The translations under genes and the position numbers were made by a program. From Elusimicrobium sp. An273 (GTDB lineage Bacteria > Elusimicrobiota > Elusimicrobia > Elusimicrobiales > Elusimicrobiaceae): a stretch of 64,000 bases of DNA. How positions within the stretch are numbered: the first letter of the stretch is position 1; each line of letters starts with the position of its first letter. Below the pieces are notes generated by a model. That model searched no databases and had not been told where the DNA came from. It was given only the letters and a program-made list of their open reading frames with translations. This document shows positions 18,244 through 25,103 of this stretch, piece by piece. The stretch lies in assembly GCF_002159705.1 (NCBI RefSeq), contig NZ_NFJD01000001.1, positions 434,001 to 498,000 on the forward strand, written 5' to 3'.

Positions 18244-21200
18244 TTACTGGGCCGGGGCGGCATCGTCCAAATTCCCCGCGGGAGGGTTCTTGCCGCCGCG
18301 TTTAAAAAGTTTCTTTACGCCCTTCCACAACCGTTTCGCTTCGTACTTCAACTCTTTTACGATCGTGGAGTTTTTCGTCATGCCCGGCGTCAGCACCAAG
18401 CTGGCCCCCAACGCCGCCCCCGCATACAACAGGGAGGACGCGTCAAACCCGGTCATCGAGGCCAAATAGCCGGCCGGAATAGCGCCTAACCCGCCCAGCG
18501 CCATCGTCAGCGCCAGAATAGAGGAGAGCTCGCGGTTCTGCTTCGGATATTTATTCATAATGTAATCATACATTTGGGTAAAGAAGTTTCCCACCCCAAA
18601 GCTGGCTACCGCTGCGCCCGTGATCATCTGCGCCACGCTGTCCCCGGCCGTGGCCATGACCAGCGTGCCCAAGGCAGAGAGCGCCGAGCAGAAGATGTAC
18701 ATGCTGTCTGCACTGATCCGGCGGCTGATGATATTGCCGCCCAAACGGCCGGCAATCAGCGGTACATACAGCGAGCACGCAATCAGGAAGTTGGCCAGTT
18801 CGCCCTGGTTAATTAATTGCTTCATCACGCTGGCGAACGAGCTGGAGATGACGAACTCGTGCACCGTGGCAAGCGTCATGGCGGAGGACAAGGCCAGCAC
18901 GCCCGGCGCTTTTAACATTTTTAAGATGTTGCCCAGCGTATTTTCCTGCACCGCCAAGGAATGTTTAATCTGCCCGGTAATTTCTTTGACGCGGGCCGGA
19001 TCCATGGCATATTCATTGGAAAGTTTGTTTTCTAATTTTTGCAGGAAGTTTTTCTTTTCTTTGGCGTACAAATCGGCTTTTTTCTGGCCCGGATTTAATT
19101 TCACGTCGGCAAAGACCAACGCGTCCAGCGCGTCTTTAAAGGCGCGGGCGGCGTCGTCAATTTGCGTAGACGAAATTTTGCCTTTGACGCCGGCCAAGGC
19201 TTTTGCGCCCGAATGCAGGGCCAATTCCAAATTCTTTTTGCTCTGTTCCAAATTCTTGGCGGAATACGCGTCGCGCAGTTTGGCGCGCCACACTTTCCAG
19301 GCCACCACCCCGCTGTATACCGCATAAATCGGGAAGCTGATGGAGTAGTCAATTCCCAAATCCACCCCGGTCGCCAGCAGGATTCCGTGGTTAATTAAGT
19401 ACGGCGAAGCCAAGAAGGCCAACGTACCCACGTTTTTATAAACGAAGCTCAAGTTGTACAGCACAACGTCTTTTAAACTGACTTCGGACTTCTTGGTAAA
19501 GAATTCTTTTAACCGCAGTCCCATTTGAGCAAAACCGTGTTTTTGTTCGGCCGTGAATTCCGTTTCGGAGGCTTTGACCGCTTCCTTGGCGTCATTTAAA
19601 ATCACTTCGCCGCGGTTGGCGCGGATGAGCATGTTGGAAACCAGCTGTTTTAAAATGCTCGAACCGCTCATCAAAAACAAGGCCGTAATGAACAGCCCTT
19701 TGGAAACCGGCCCCAGCGTCAGTCCTTCTACAAAACCGTAGAAACCGCCGGCACTGGCCAACACCCCCGCCGCGGAGGACATCGCCAACGAAAGCACCAT
19801 CAGTTTCTTTTCCCCGTATTTCTTTAAAACAGGAGTCAGCAAAGAAGCCAAGCCCGGCAAAATGTAGTTAATCGTAAACATCATGCTGTTTGCCGCGCTT
19901 ACTTCCATCCCCAAAGAGCCGTTGACCATCGGCCCCATGGTTTTGCCGAGGCTAACGTTGGTCAGCGAAGCATCCCGCATAATCAGGTCGGCACGGTTGC
20001 GGGTCGGATGCACCGACACATTAAAAGAGGTCGGGCTAAAACGCAGTACTTCTACAAAATTGGCAATTTGATTTTTGGGCAGGCGCACATAAAAGCCTTT
20101 CAAGGCCGTCGGCTGTGTGGCACCCGGTTTAAGCAGGCCCAAGGCGCCGTTCTCCATCACCACCATTTTGGCATTTTCCACATAGGCTTTTACCGGCATT
20201 TCCACTTCCAAGGGAAGCTCTTTGCCGCTTAAGAAATCATAGACGGGAAGCTTAACCGACTTGTACACCACGTCCGGCGTACTTTCCAGTTTCAGATTGA
20301 ATTTTTCAATTCCAGTCGCTTGAATTAAATCCGCCAAAGCGCCTACTTGGTTGCGCTGCAAGCGCATATAGAAATGCGCCATGCGCAGGGGTTCCTGCTC
20401 TTGGTTGCGCAGCTCCGCCACATAGCCGTGTTTGAAATCCGAATGGGCCGCAAAAGCAATGCGGTTGTACCCTTTTACACGGAAGCGGTTGCTGATTTCC
20501 AAATTGACCGGCAGGATTTTTTCTACGCCCTGTTCATCAACCAGCGTCAGCTTAAACCCTTTTTCAGATACCGGGATAAATCCCGTTTCATTGGCGCCCA
20601 TGACCTCATCGGCCGAGGCCGGCGCTTCCGGAGAGCGCAAATTGCTGAATACTTCGTGAATTTCGGAATCGTCATGCAGGCCGGGCTCTTCGTGCGGGGC
20701 ACTGGGCAGAGCCGGCTCCTTTTTCCCCCATTTGCCGCGCAGCCAAGAAGCGGCTTTTTTAAACAGTTTGCCGGCTTCAAATACGGGCAGCCCGCTGTAT
20801 AAGGTGCCAGAGGAAGAGGAAGGCGTGCTTTTGGCAAAGAATTGTACCGTTTTTTGCTGTACTTGAGTGGGAGCCGGGGCGGGTTGTTCGGCTGCCGCCG
20901 TACCGCCGGGCAGGGTAATGGGCGAAACATTTAAATCGGCTGCGGGCAGTGCAACTTGCGGCAGGGAAATATCCAACGCCGCCATTGGCTCCGGCGCGGC
21001 GGCCTTTTGAGCGGAAGCCGTTTCTGCCGGCGTACCCAGCGAAAGCCATTTATCCGTCGCTTCGGAAGAAGCTTTGGCATTGAGGGCGTTGGGCTGGCAG
21101 CCGGCCCGCAGGAAAACGGCTAAAGCGTCGTCTTCCGCACTGGGGGCAACGGCTCCGTCCGCCACGGAAATCTGTACTCCTTTTTCGTGGGCACGGGCGG

Positions 21201-22050
21201 CTACATCTTTCCAAAACGGGCCTTGCGCTTTGACCAACGCGGCCAATTCCTGCAGTTCTTTATAGGCCCCTTGGCGCAGCAATCCGCGGGCGGCAATGCG
21301 CTGCGCCGCGTCTTTAAAAACGGAAGAGGAAGCTTGTTTATAAAAAGCCAACAGGCTCGCCCCGTCCTCCGCTCCGCCTAAAAGCCCTAACGCCGCCGCA
21401 GAAGACAGCGCCTGCTGGCTTTGGCTGACGATTTGGTAAGAGGGATGTTCCGGGGTGCGGGCAATTTTCAGCAAGGTGTTTAAATCCGCTTGGGGCAGCT
21501 GGGCAAAAGCGCCGCCGTTGTTGGCTAAATCCGTGCGGTAAAATTGTACGGCTTGGGCCACTTGGGCTTTGTCCGCCCCGCCTTTTAAAGCAACGGTTAC
21601 AAATTCATTGCGAAGGAGTCCTTCCCGGAAAGACGGTTTGGGGTAGCTTAAAATACGGCTGGCCAGCCCGTCTGTTTGGCCGGCCGCAACCAAGGCCCGG
21701 ATCTCTTTGCCGCTGACGGTTAATTGCTGCCGAACCGAGCGGTCTACATTAAGGCGCAGCTGAGAGACATCATAAGAGGGAAGAGGAGATGCAACGGAAA
21801 CAGACGGAAAAGCGGATTTAGCAGCCGAAGAAACGGGAACCGCCGCCGCATGGGCCGCGGCAGCCGAGACTCCCTTCTGCACCAATTTGCCGGGCAGGGC
21901 TTTCCCCGCGGTAACAGCGGCGCTTTTTGCTCCGCTTTGCGTTAAGCCCTTAACTACTTGCCGGCCGGCCGGAACGAGCTGGGCCAGCGACGGAGTAACG
22001 CTGCTGACCAACAGACTGATGCTTAAAATGGCTGCTAGTATTTTGTTCAT
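18244..22050 (-). CDS. Giant exported fusion: helical repeats, duplicated beta-domain and MFS-like transporter
   Basis: 1268 residues. A signal peptide (1-24, ending SLAQ) leads to an Ala-rich stretch, a helical repeat region at about 100-295 (HEAT-like by eye), a Pro/Ala/Ser linker (300-490), then a tandem duplicated domain. Its two copies contain HFYMRLQRNQVGALADLI (559-576) and GFYVRLPKNQIANFVEVL (652-669). From about 718 to 1222 there are 10-12 membrane helices with an MFS-like layout and a long helical loop at 920-1045. The tail is Lys-rich. Start has GAGGAA 7 nt upstream. The membrane part suggests transport, substrate unknown. Its leader carries an operator, a promoter and a terminator hairpin. 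Confidence 0.8.
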   Translation of the reverse strand: MNKILAAILSISLLVSSVTPSLAQLVPAGRQVVKGLTQSGAKSAAVTAGKALPGKLVQKGVSAAAAHAAAVPVSSAAKSAFPSVSVASPLPSYDVSQLRLNVDRSVRQQLTVSGKEIRALVAAGQTDGLASRILSYPKPSFREGLLRNEFVTVALKGGADKAQVAQAVQFYRTDLANNGGAFAQLPQADLNTLLKIARTPEHPSYQIVSQSQQALSSAAALGLLGGAEDGASLLAFYKQASSSVFKDAAQRIAARGLLRQGAYKELQELAALVKAQGPFWKDVAARAHEKGVQISVADGAVAPSAEDDALAVFLRAGCQPNALNAKASSEATDKWLSLGTPAETASAQKAAAPEPMAALDISLPQVALPAADLNVSPITLPGGTAAAEQPAPAPTQVQQKTVQFFAKSTPSSSSGTLYSGLPVFEAGKLFKKAASWLRGKWGKKEPALPSAPHEEPGLHDDSEIHEVFSNLRSPEAPASADEVMGANETGFIPVSEKGFKLTLVDEQGVEKILPVNLEISNRFRVKGYNRIAFAAHSDFKHGYVAELRNQEQEPLRMAHFYMRLQRNQVGALADLIQATGIEKFNLKLESTPDVVYKSVKLPVYDFLSGKELPLEVEMPVKAYVENAKMVVMENGALGLLKPGATQPTALKGFYVRLPKNQIANFVEVLRFSPTSFNVSVHPTRNRADLIMRDASLTNVSLGKTMGPMVNGSLGMEVSAANSMMFTINYILPGLASLLTPVLKKYGEKKLMVLSLAMSSAAGVLASAGGFYGFVEGLTLGPVSKGLFITALFLMSGSSILKQLVSNMLIRANRGEVILNDAKEAVKASETEFTAEQKHGFAQMGLRLKEFFTKKSEVSLKDVVLYNLSFVYKNVGTLAFLASPYLINHGILLATGVDLGIDYSISFPIYAVYSGVVAWKVWRAKLRDAYSAKNLEQSKKNLELALHSGAKALAGVKGKISSTQIDDAARAFKDALDALVFADVKLNPGQKKADLYAKEKKNFLQKLENKLSNEYAMDPARVKEITGQIKHSLAVQENTLGNILKMLKAPGVLALSSAMTLATVHEFVISSSFASVMKQLINQGELANFLIACSLYVPLIAGRLGGNIISRRISADSMYIFCSALSALGTLVMATAGDSVAQMITGAAVASFGVGNFFTQMYDYIMNKYPKQNRELSSILALTMALGGLGAIPAGYLASMTGFDASSLLYAGAALGASLVLTPGMTKNSTIVKELKYEAKRLWKGVKKLFKRGGKNPPAGNLDDAAPAQ

Positions 22051-22075: not shown

Positions 22076-22330
22076 TTAATTATGAGTTAAATAACGACAA
22101 AAAAATAGGGCCAAAAGACCTATATTTTTTCGGTTTTTGGCCCTATGTAAAACTGGGACTGACAGACACTGCAAATAAATAGAATAGGAAACGGCTTGAA
22201 TATTTCTGAAAATCTGGGAAAAACGGGAAGCAAACGGAAAAGGGAAAACGGCAACGGATGCCGCCGTCTGCGGCTTGAGCCGCTGGGGCAAGCACTGGCA
22301 CGCAAATTGGGTATGATTGCTGCAGTACAT
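22076..22330 (-). CDS. Candidate leader ORF upstream of the fusion gene
   Basis: 84 codons, ATG at 22330 with AAAGGAG 7 nt upstream, about 25 nt downstream of the predicted transcription start. It ends 25 nt before the start of the fusion gene and runs through the terminator hairpin at 22099-22146. The composition is odd (many Cys, Phe, Ser and Arg) and no family is recognised. It may be a real leader peptide acting on the hairpin, or chance. Overlapping frames here are less well placed. Confidence 0.35.
   Translation of the reverse strand: MYCSNHTQFACQCLPQRLKPQTAASVAVFPFPFASRFSQIFRNIQAVSYSIYLQCLSVPVLHRAKNRKNIGLLALFFCRYLTHN
22099..22146 (-). terminator. Terminator or attenuator hairpin in the leader of the fusion gene
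   Basis: Perfect 12-bp stem 22105-22116 with 22135-22146, 18-nt loop, followed in the minus direction by seven T. It sits between the predicted promoter and the start of the fusion gene, so it would stop transcription before the gene unless relieved. Confidence 0.65.
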
Positions 22331-22361: not shown

Positions 22362-22423
22362 ATTATAATAAACTTATCTATCCCCCCTCAACCGAATAAA
22401 AGACCTATTTTTGCTTTAGGCCT
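22362..22423 (-). promoter_or_regulatory. Operator plus promoter of the giant fusion gene
   Basis: Minus strand: -35 TTGAGG (22386-22391), 18-bp spacer, -10 TATAAT (22362-22367). A dyad of 8-bp half-sites 7 bp apart covers 22401-22423: ATAGGTCT next to the promoter and an imperfect inverted copy further out. ATAGGTCT lies exactly 9 nt from the -35 box, as it does before the gene at 24322-24999. Confidence 0.6.
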
Positions 22424-22448
22424 TTTGGGTTAGCTGCCGTCGGAGCAT

Positions 22449-22477
22449 AAAAAAGCCCCGGCCAAAACCGGGGCTTT
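22449..22477 (-). terminator. Intrinsic terminator of coaD
   Basis: Ten-bp stem 22452-22461 with 22468-22477, T run in the minus direction. Confidence 0.88.
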
Positions 22478-22483
22478 CAAAAC

Positions 22484-22966
22484 TTAAAATCGTTTTTTCC
22501 GCTGCAGGGCCTCCGCCACCCCGGGCGGCACCAGCGCACTTACGTCCGCCCCGTAGGAAAAAGCTTCCCGCACCGCCGAGGAACTTAAAAACGCATATTC
22601 GGGCCGGCCGGGCAAAAAGACGGTCTCCGCCGAGGCGTAAAATTGTTTATTGTAAAAGGCGTTTACCAACTCATGCTCCAAATCCCCTTCGCCGCGCAGG
22701 CCGCGCACCAATACTTTCAGCCCGTTCTTTTTTAAATAGTCCGTCAGCAACCCCTCGGTCGCCTCCACCCGGACGTTTTCCTCCCCTTGCAGGGCTTGGC
22801 GCAGCAGTTCCACCCGTTCTTGCGCCGTAAAAAGCGGCCGCTTGCAGGCATTGGGCATCACCAGCACAATCACGGCGCCAAACACGTCCCGTGCGCGGCG
22901 GATAATATCCATATGTCCGTTGGTAACGGGGTCAAAACTTCCGGCATATACGGCGGGGGTCAGCAT
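22484..22966 (-). CDS. coaD: Phosphopantetheine adenylyltransferase
   Basis: 160 residues, typical CoaD length. Catalyses the fourth step of coenzyme A synthesis, ATP plus 4'-phosphopantetheine to dephospho-CoA. GSFDPVTNGH (nucleotidyltransferase T/HxGH motif) and VRGLRGEGDLEHE are seen, with the C-terminal SSSAVREAFSYG. AGGAG lies 7 nt before the ATG. Divergent from dgt. A second CoA-pathway gene (coaW) is at 55661. Confidence 0.96.
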   Translation of the reverse strand: MLTPAVYAGSFDPVTNGHMDIIRRARDVFGAVIVLVMPNACKRPLFTAQERVELLRQALQGEENVRVEATEGLLTDYLKKNGLKVLVRGLRGEGDLEHELVNAFYNKQFYASAETVFLPGRPEYAFLSSSAVREAFSYGADVSALVPPGVAEALQRKKRF

Positions 22967-23007
22967 ATTTTCTCCTGTCTGTCTTCTATCTGCCTTCTAT
23001 ATTATGG

Positions 23008-23019
23008 TATCATAATTTT
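23008..23019 (+). promoter_or_regulatory. dgt -10 box, leaderless type
   Basis: TATCAT at 23008-23013, 6 nt before the ATG; no Shine-Dalgarno sequence is possible if transcription starts at the usual distance. Confidence 0.4.
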
Positions 23020-24141
23020 ATGATAAAAAATCCGTTCCCCAATGAAATTTATTTGGCCCGCACCCATGCCCATACGCCCGACTTGCGCGATGAGTATTTC
23101 CGCGACCAGACCAAAATCATTCATTCGCTCCCGTTTCGACGCCTGAAACACAAAACGCAGGTCTTCTTTGCGCCCAACAACGACCACATCTGCACCCGCA
23201 TCGAACACGTGCTGCACGTGGCCACTATCGCCGCCACCATTTGCCGCGGCTTAAACAAAAGCGGGAACTGGGAACTGAGCGAAGATATGGCCTATGCCAT
23301 CGGGCTGGGGCACGATATCGGGCATGCGCCCTTCGGGCACGAAGGGGAACGCGCGATTGACGCCTGCATCCGCCCCAAACGTTTTCTGCACGAGCTCAAC
23401 AGCTACCGGGTGGTGGAACATCTGGCCAACTACGGGGAAGGATTGAATTTAACGTTTGCCGTCAAAGACGGCATCATCTGCCACTGCGGGGAAGATTTTG
23501 CCAACAATAAACTCCGCCCCGCGGACAAGCCCAACGATTTGGAAAAAATTACCGGCCGCAACCAAATGCCTTCCACCTATGAGGGCTGCATTGTGCGCCT
23601 GTCGGACAAAATCGCCTACTTGGGCCGGGATATTGAAGACGCCATTAAAGCCGATTTGATTACGACCAACGACATCCCCAAAAACGTGCGGGAAGAAATC
23701 GGCACCTCCAACGGGGAAATTATCAACACCCTTACCTTGGATTTAATCAATCATTCCAAGGATAAGGATTTTATCGGATTTTCGGACGACAAGTTTGCCC
23801 TACTCTCCCAGCTGCGCACATTCAACTACGAACGCATCTACCACAACGAGCAAATGCGCCAGCGCAAGGAAACCATAGACAAATGTATCCGCGATTTGTT
23901 TGACTACTTCCGCACCATTTTTAACCGCTACGGCTTTGATTACGAAGCTTATGCCAAGGAAGGCAAAAACACCGCCAAAAGCTTTGCCAATTACATGAAG
24001 TCCATGACCAAGGTCTACCACCAAGATCCCGCCCAGATAGACACGGCCATCGCCGATTATATCGCCGGGATGACCGATTCGTTTGCCTTAAGCGTGATGG
24101 AAGACGTGATTTTGCCCAACTCCATTAAATTCTTCAGCTAA
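23020..24141 (+). CDS. dgt: HD-domain deoxyguanosinetriphosphate triphosphohydrolase-like protein
   Basis: 373 residues. The HD-domain metal motif is spread as RIEHVLHV (first His) and GLGHDIGHAPFGHEGE (His-Asp and following His), the pattern of dNTP triphosphohydrolases. These cleave dNTP to nucleoside and tripolyphosphate and balance nucleotide pools. The early RRLKHKTQVF region is also typical of the family. The gene stands alone; the 180 bp after it hold only the terminator of the opposite gene. Confidence 0.9.
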   Translation: MIKNPFPNEIYLARTHAHTPDLRDEYFRDQTKIIHSLPFRRLKHKTQVFFAPNNDHICTRIEHVLHVATIAATICRGLNKSGNWELSEDMAYAIGLGHDIGHAPFGHEGERAIDACIRPKRFLHELNSYRVVEHLANYGEGLNLTFAVKDGIICHCGEDFANNKLRPADKPNDLEKITGRNQMPSTYEGCIVRLSDKIAYLGRDIEDAIKADLITTNDIPKNVREEIGTSNGEIINTLTLDLINHSKDKDFIGFSDDKFALLSQLRTFNYERIYHNEQMRQRKETIDKCIRDLFDYFRTIFNRYGFDYEAYAKEGKNTAKSFANYMKSMTKVYHQDPAQIDTAIADYIAGMTDSFALSVMEDVILPNSIKFFS

Positions 24142-24269
24142 AGCGCATCCGAAAATTCGTACGAAACCCTATTTTCGCCGCGCAAACCGTCCGGCGCGGA
24201 TTTGCCTGTGAGTTGTTGGCAAATTTGCCGCACATACGGCTGTTCCCCGGAAAGACAAAGCCATATAAA

Positions 24270-24302
24270 AAAGGAACACCTCCGGAGGGGTACCGGAGGT
24301 GT
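24270..24302 (-). terminator. Intrinsic terminator of the ankyrin-like gene
   Basis: Ten-bp stem 24276-24285 with 24293-24302 and a 7-nt loop; the minus-strand continuation is TCC followed by six T. Confidence 0.75.
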
Positions 24303-24321
24303 GGGGGGGATGAAATCGGTT

Positions 24322-24999
24322 TTATAAATAGGGCGCGTTATTTTGGAAGAAAGCAATCACTTGCGCCATACCGGGGGCGGAGGCATTATCCCGCGCCGCT
24401 TGGGCAATAGTGCGGCCGCTGGCGTCTTTGCTCATTTCCACCACCACAGCAGCTTCCGTTTTGGCCACTTCGGCAATTAAACCGCCTTTGTTTAATTTGG
24501 TTTTTACCGTCATCATTTTGTCGTACATATCCGTATACGGAAAAGCAATGCGGAAGGTATCGGCGCGGCCGTAATTAATCTGAGCCTGAACCGGCGTCTC
24601 GCCCAGCTGATTGCGCTGGTTCATCATTTGGCGGATTTTGATTTTATAATCGCCGGGATAGAAATCGCGCAGTACGCGGGCCAAGGCCTGAAATGTTTGG
24701 GCGTTGCGCGCCACATGAAAAACATTGTTCCCGTTTTTGCCGGTGCGCAGCAGGAAAGAACCGTTGGCCGCGCGTTTACCATAGCGCAAAATCGCGCTTA
24801 CGTCCCCGTTCTGGGCTGCCGTAAAAACAGGCGTATCGCCAAATTCATTTTCTTTATTCAAATCGGCAGAAGAAAGGGCACGGGTCAGGTATTCGTGCAC
24901 CAATTGCTGACGGCGTTCCTGGCGAGCATCCCGCGTCGGCGCCGCGTTTACCACCGAAACCATCAAACAAGCGATCAAAATAAAAAGAATGTTTTTCAT
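24322..24999 (-). CDS. Exported ankyrin-repeat-like protein
   Basis: 225 residues. A signal peptide (MKNILFILIACLMVSVVNA) is followed by about four degenerate ankyrin-type repeats: NEFGDTPVFTAAQNGDVSAI, GKNGNNVFHVARNAQTFQAL, NQLGETPVQAQINYGRADTF and DASGRTIAQAARDNA. The repeats usually bind other proteins, here outside the inner membrane. GAGG lies 5 nt before the ATG. Its promoter region matches that of the giant fusion gene, so the two are probably controlled together. Confidence 0.75.
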   Translation of the reverse strand: MKNILFILIACLMVSVVNAAPTRDARQERRQQLVHEYLTRALSSADLNKENEFGDTPVFTAAQNGDVSAILRYGKRAANGSFLLRTGKNGNNVFHVARNAQTFQALARVLRDFYPGDYKIKIRQMMNQRNQLGETPVQAQINYGRADTFRIAFPYTDMYDKMMTVKTKLNKGGLIAEVAKTEAAVVVEMSKDASGRTIAQAARDNASAPGMAQVIAFFQNNAPYL

Positions 25000-25035
25000 A
25001 ATTACCTCTTACTTTAGTATCTCTTTTTCGCCGCA

Positions 25036-25097
25036 GTTTTACGAGGGTCTTTGGGCCTATTTCAAGCGGAATTTAGACCTATCTTTTTTCTGGGTCT
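25036..25097 (-). promoter_or_regulatory. Operator plus promoter of the ankyrin-like gene
   Basis: Minus strand: -35 TTGAAA (25060-25065), 18-bp spacer, -10 TAAAAC (25036-25041). A dyad at 25075-25097 has the half-site ATAGGTCT 9 nt from the -35 box and an imperfect inverted half-site 7 bp further out. Arrangement is the same as at 22362-22423. Confidence 0.6.
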
Positions 25098-25103
25098 TCA
25101 CAT

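Follow-up and report, generated by a model that had tools for sequence, protein, structure and literature searches.

A conserved inverted-repeat element at predicted promoters of exported-protein genes in Elusimicrobium sp. An273

The window analyzed here is a stretch of 64,000 nt from Elusimicrobium sp. An273, to which all window coordinates refer, and it carries two minus-strand genes for exported proteins whose promoter sites lie on the same strand. The first is a giant gene (18244..22050) encoding a 1268-aa protein with a signal peptide ending in SLAQ and an MFS_1-like C-terminal region (Pfam MFS_1, residues 1057-1236). Its product has three paralogues in the genome (947, 932 and 1455 aa) and no sequence match in the PDB. 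The second gene (24322..24999) encodes an ankyrin-like exported protein of 225 aa, where the Ank_2 match is weak (E 7e-5, under the curated cut-off) and relatives occur in 42 of 59 genomes of the genus. Between the giant gene and its upstream promoter (P1) lies a small minus-strand ORF of 84 aa with a strong Shine-Dalgarno sequence (22076..22330). All 11 orthologues keep this frame open beyond a leader hairpin, and the stretch LKPQT recurs among them. The coding signal of this ORF is weak (third-position excess of 1116 versus 856 and 850), and the region may instead be a structured leader RNA; an Rfam search returned chance-level matches only.

Inspection of the two promoter regions reveals a common arrangement. 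The word ATAGGTCT lies at 22408-22401 before the giant gene and at 25082-25075 before the ankyrin-like gene. At the giant-gene site, 9 nt separate it from TTGAGG (22391-22386), which is followed by an 18-bp spacer and TATAAT (22367-22362); at the ankyrin-gene site, 9 nt lead to TTGAAA (25065-25060), an 18-bp spacer and TAAAAC (25041-25036). Inverted half-sites lie farther out, AAGGCCTA at 22424-22417 and AAGACCCA at 25098-25091, such that the dyad spacing at both sites is N9 when counted between 8-mers. The shared design described in the first-pass annotation, namely a half-site 9 nt from the -35 box, an 18-bp spacer and an imperfect inverted outer half-site, is thus exact at both sites. Its statement that non-coding DNA of the window has the word only at these two sites and in the giant-gene leader also holds: the window has three copies, all non-coding, the third at 22122-22115. 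The observed design is real and is part of a far larger set than first reported.

To place these sites within the 1.5-Mb genome (14 contigs), genes were called on the four large contigs and intergenic words were counted. The exact word ATAGGTCT has 21 copies genome-wide, where 14 are intergenic against about 1.1-3 expected and just 5 fall inside ~1.3 Mb of called coding sequence. In the list of over-represented intergenic 8-mers, TAGGTCTT/AAGACCTA comes second: an order-3 Markov model predicts 1.3 copies, and 24 are present. The combination ATAGGTCT-N9-TTGA occurs three times in the genome, at both window sites and one other, and the reversed pattern does not occur. Judged against this reversed control and the intergenic expectation, the word with promoter spacing is far above chance. 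A search of all spacings of AAGACCTA...TAGGTCTT gave a sharp peak at N8 (9 sites at <=2 mismatches; 0.2 in shuffles, none in coding sequence) and a second at N9 (4 sites at <=2 mismatches; 0-0.2 in shuffles, none in coding sequence). The usual spacings in the genome are N8 within the dyad and N7 to TTG, and the window promoters are slightly off this geometry, with an N9 dyad and, at P1, N8 to TTG. Given these peaks, the window pair belongs to a genome-wide set, in its rarer spacing class, and the dyad does not occur at a random rate.

The full dyad takes the form AAGRCCYA-N8/9-TRGGYCTT, usually followed by TTGNCCC, a poor -35 box (TTGT..) and a TANNNT -10 box at a fixed distance. A matrix comprising this dyad and 14 downstream bases, applied to the four large contigs (that is, all but ten small contigs of about 53 kb), retrieved 36 upstream regions at >=14 bits and no reversed upstream region, where leave-one-out scoring applied to the training genes only; matrix, gene caller and signal-peptide caller were all home-made. 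The element is linked to promoters. TANNNT, which lies outside the matrix, stands exactly 30 nt downstream of the dyad end in 17 of the 36 sites against a background of 2.4%, and is therefore taken as a -10 box with a 17-bp spacer. The -10 boxes are good, and the -35 boxes are poor (TTGTNN, TCGTAA), matching the consensus mainly in TTG. Genes with a predicted signal peptide lie behind 28/36 matrix promoters compared with 199/652 other regions (Fisher P = 2e-8), a bias that may be inflated because the matrix was trained on signal-peptide genes. Several of the remaining eight targets are divergent neighbours or probably have mis-called starts, an exception being a thioredoxin-like gene (C3:245368, -) that pairs a 21.6-bit operator with a near-consensus -35 box, TTGACA, and is among the few apparently non-exported targets. 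We consider it very improbable that the element is a dispersed genome word with no role in transcription, such as a motif for DNA uptake or replication, whose intergenic location is mere tolerance. Over-representation in the genome and its relatives would suit such a word, but the copies number in the tens only and keep to promoter elements and one gene class, and the promoter-locked spacing already contradicts it.

The targets include an M20 peptidase, trypsin-like proteins, a Gln_deamidase_2 protein, a histidine kinase, the ankyrin protein, giant proteins and four proteins that combine a signal peptide with a receiver-like domain; many products have no Pfam match. The operator stands in front of all four members of the receiver-like exported family. 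In three of them (L093:1640-2749, -; L073:12041-13354, +; L039:18656-19819, -) the receiver-like domain is C-terminal to the predicted signal peptide. These proteins retain Asp at the usual phospho-acceptor position, which is odd for exported proteins. The Gln_deamidase_2 (glutaminase) match, in an exported protein at C1:272007-273230 (L038:12007-13230, -), is barely over the curated cut-off, and an operator half-site lies upstream.

Conservation of the element was followed in relatives, where it is kept across genus, family and sister family. The strict dyad was found in 27/61 genomes with no reversed matches. The promoter-proximal half, TRGGYCTTTTGNCYCTTG, was found in 86/295 genomes of the phylum, all from the same class, and its reversed control in none. 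It is concentrated in the organism's own genus and family and extends to the sister family; a few genomes from families f7 and f8 also carry it, and no others in the 295-genome sample do. At relatives' loci with a callable downstream gene, the product of that gene mostly opens with a signal peptide, in many cases one that ends in AQ. A set of 39 dyads from relatives and the genome itself was picked without regard to flanking sequence; 21 of its 78 sides have TTG at offset 7, and pooling the flanks brings out the TTGNCCC arm.

Comparison of orthologues leads to a different placement of the ankyrin-gene promoter. Its distal operator, AAGACCCA-N9-TAGGTCTA (25074..25098, -), has half-sites kept in 8/8 aligned orthologues with purine/pyrimidine swaps. 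The -35 box first assigned to this gene, TTGAAA, does not fare as well, reading TGGAAA or TGGACC in 3/8 orthologues. Farther downstream, a proximal operator in 7-2-7 form, TAGGCCC-AA-AGACCCT (25044..25059, -), is kept in 8/8 bar one A/G and one C/A position, and a likely core promoter with TCGTAA, a 17-bp spacer and GATACT (25016..25044, -) has both hexamers in 8/8, with its -10 box at the canonical offset of 30. That is to say, the whole block, TAGGCCC-AA-AGRCCCT with TCGTAA-N17-GATACT, is kept in every orthologue apart from two single-base variants. Because this block is conserved with exactly canonical geometry, the ankyrin promoter is probably TCGTAA-N17-GATACT, about 20 bp downstream of the one first noted.

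The giant gene appears to possess two promoters of the class. At P1, the operator (22400..22424, -) is the dyad AAGGCCTA-N9-TAGGTCTT, kept in 11/11 orthologues with variable spacer bases as AAGRCCTA-N9-TAGGYCTT, where one orthologue reads TAGGCCCT. In the P1 core promoter (22362..22391, -; TTGAGG, 18-bp spacer, TATAAT), TTG is kept in 11/11 orthologues and the -10 box is TATAAT, TACAAT or TAAAAT. The third window copy of the word, which had been described as a hairpin loop in the leader, belongs to an inverted repeat, ATAGGGCCAAAA...TTTTGGCCCTAT, that contains TAGGTCT-TT-TGGCCCT and does indeed fold as a predicted hairpin followed by seven T (22105..22146, -). It is not merely a hairpin, however, as it shows canonical operator-promoter geometry. 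The operator word TAGGTCTTTTGGCCCTAT is identical in 11/11 orthologues. A core promoter with TATTTT, a 17-bp spacer and CATAAT (22079..22107, -) places its -10 box at the regulon offset of 30 from the dyad end, with ATAAT in 11/11, and some 65 nt separate the dyad from the start codon, a distance shared with other regulon genes. Together these features identify the leader copy as a predicted second, canonical promoter (P2) of the giant gene. Since it also folds as a hairpin before a T run, the P2 element may double as a terminator of P1 transcripts, such that one sequence may be both operator and terminator hairpin.

At C3:189337-189366, between two related exported-protein genes, AACCATAGGTCTTAAGACCTATGGTT forms a perfect palindrome with a T run behind it, a terminator-like use of the same word. 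This copy and the leader hairpin are what would be expected if the inverted repeats acted as RNA, as intrinsic terminators or leader hairpins, with their likeness arising from terminator composition. As a general account we find this improbable, as most copies lie upstream of the -10 box and so are not transcribed from their own promoter; nor would it explain the fixed N8/9 spacing, the fixed TTG and -10 offsets or the bias towards exported genes.

We instead favor the reading, with a probability of roughly 0.7, that both window sites represent one operator-promoter class over about 35 genes, mostly with Sec-exported products, served by one shared dimeric regulator that is probably a class II activator. 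The same predicted operator stands at a consistent promoter position before related genes and is kept in relatives, a pattern that is that of a regulon. The first-pass annotation had proposed a dedicated regulator of a small regulon of exported proteins; the exported character of the set and its conservation bear this out, but with about 35 promoters the set is not small. The arrangement suggests that much of the bacterium's secretome is switched jointly.

A dimeric transcription factor is the putative binding partner of the element. The consensus, once seen, could be parsed as two mirrored 7-2-7 inverted repeats, [AGGGNCA-AA-AGRCCTA]-N8/9-[TAGGYCT-TT-TGNCCCT], immediately preceding the weak -35 box (TTGTNN or TCGTAA) and a normal TANNNT -10 box. 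The inverted heptamers TAGGYCT-TT-TGNCCCT are present both in the matrix and in relatives picked on the dyad alone. A regulator dimer would bind the proximal 7-2-7 site, with the mirrored second site usually about 24 bp upstream. It is improbable, in our estimate, that the element is instead a promoter part recognized by an alternative sigma factor, or a polymerase-associated protein, dedicated to it. The distances to the -35 and -10 boxes are fixed and the genome encodes an ECF-type sigma (C4:63186), yet a long inverted repeat with a variable middle and both arms conserved points to a dimer, and the -10 boxes resemble the housekeeping TANNNT.

The position of the proximal site relative to predicted starts informs the likely mode of action. 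Its center lies at -42.5 for promoters with a 17-bp spacer and at -44.5 for P1, where -42.5 falls within the range of about -41 to -45 that marks class II activation. Class II activators contact sigma region 4 from around -42. Given this placement and the poor -35 boxes, the likeliest mode of action is class II activation, and if a factor exists we consider it reasonably likely, by about two to one in rough terms, that it activates transcription. The same operator and regulator could alternatively repress, with dimers at -42 and farther upstream blocking RNA polymerase from the -35 box until a signal dislodges them. The proximal site directly adjoins the -35 box and shares part of it, and two dimer sites could act cooperatively; the -10 box and start site nevertheless lie outside the operators, and a poor -35 box with a good -10 box is expected of activator-dependent promoters. 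Repression thus appears unlikely, though less so than the readings as RNA or sigma target.

The element has the geometry seen with NarL/FixJ-type response regulators. NarL itself recognizes inverted heptamers in a 7-2-7 layout, among them sites in napF (-40 to -49) and yeaR (-38 to -47) (PMC4549865). The likeness to the Escherichia coli NarL/NarP regulon (e.g. TACCCCT-AA-AGGGGTA) consists of inverted heptamers 2 bp apart and a dimer center at about -42 to -45 (PMC4549865). In contrast, the Elusimicrobium heptamer is TAGGYCT/AGGGNCA and not that of NarL, the site is usually accompanied by a mirrored repeat of itself some 24 bp upstream, and exported proteins, not respiratory genes, make up its targets. 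The half-sites and spacing also differ from those of BvgA, RcsB and LuxR box sites. These sites of other LuxR/FixJ-type activators are dyads with TAGG/CCTA-like cores or ~-42 placement. Gut Elusimicrobia of this lineage are known nearly all from metagenomes, and the open-access literature searched yielded no account of a transcription-factor regulon in them. An operator paired with its regulator is a known kind of system; this particular regulon and its motif seem not to have been described in that literature.

DNA-binding regulators were inventoried as a small set recognized with generic consensus queries, and the inventory is consequently incomplete. A NarL-type response regulator gene at C2:312179-312871 shares a row of genes with two histidine kinases and adjoins Tad/Flp-like genes. 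Its orthologues occur in every motif-bearing genome tested and also in many genomes without the strict motif, including genera within the class, and no family f15 match is among the matches listed. We regard it as a possible but tentative candidate for the factor; given its presence in genomes without the strict motif and its place at a Tad/Flp-like pilus locus, its function may be a different one. A TetR-type gene (C2:149296) was rejected, being present in 4/110 genomes, as was a MerR-type gene (C1:86022), which is phylum-wide, including motif-less families, and has no match in the motif-bearing genome G011. A second GerE response regulator (C4:102748) has close matches only within family f1. 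No clear operator indicative of autoregulation lies upstream of the scorable DNA-binding regulator genes.

A sharply defined, conserved operator allows exported proteins under joint control, many of them functionally unassigned, to be listed, and provides a concrete sequence with which to retrieve the regulator; metagenome-assembled genomes alone suffice to read such promoter architecture. One could imagine a class-wide secretome switch of Elusimicrobia, in which one conserved regulator, possibly linked to a Tad/Flp-like pilus, would act through the double 7-2-7 operator to turn on a large set of exported proteins (peptidases, receiver-like domains, ankyrin and giant multi-domain proteins), with one of the operator copies at the giant gene doubling as an attenuator hairpin in the leader of a same-class upstream promoter. 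Taken as a whole, this picture is speculative and we think it doubtful. The Tad/Flp-like pilus locus itself (C2:306673-322366, -; in L066), contains the two histidine-kinase genes and the NarL-type response regulator conserved across the class. Separately, a type IV pilin-like family (query C3:111237) has about 45 relatives in the 1.5-Mb genome.
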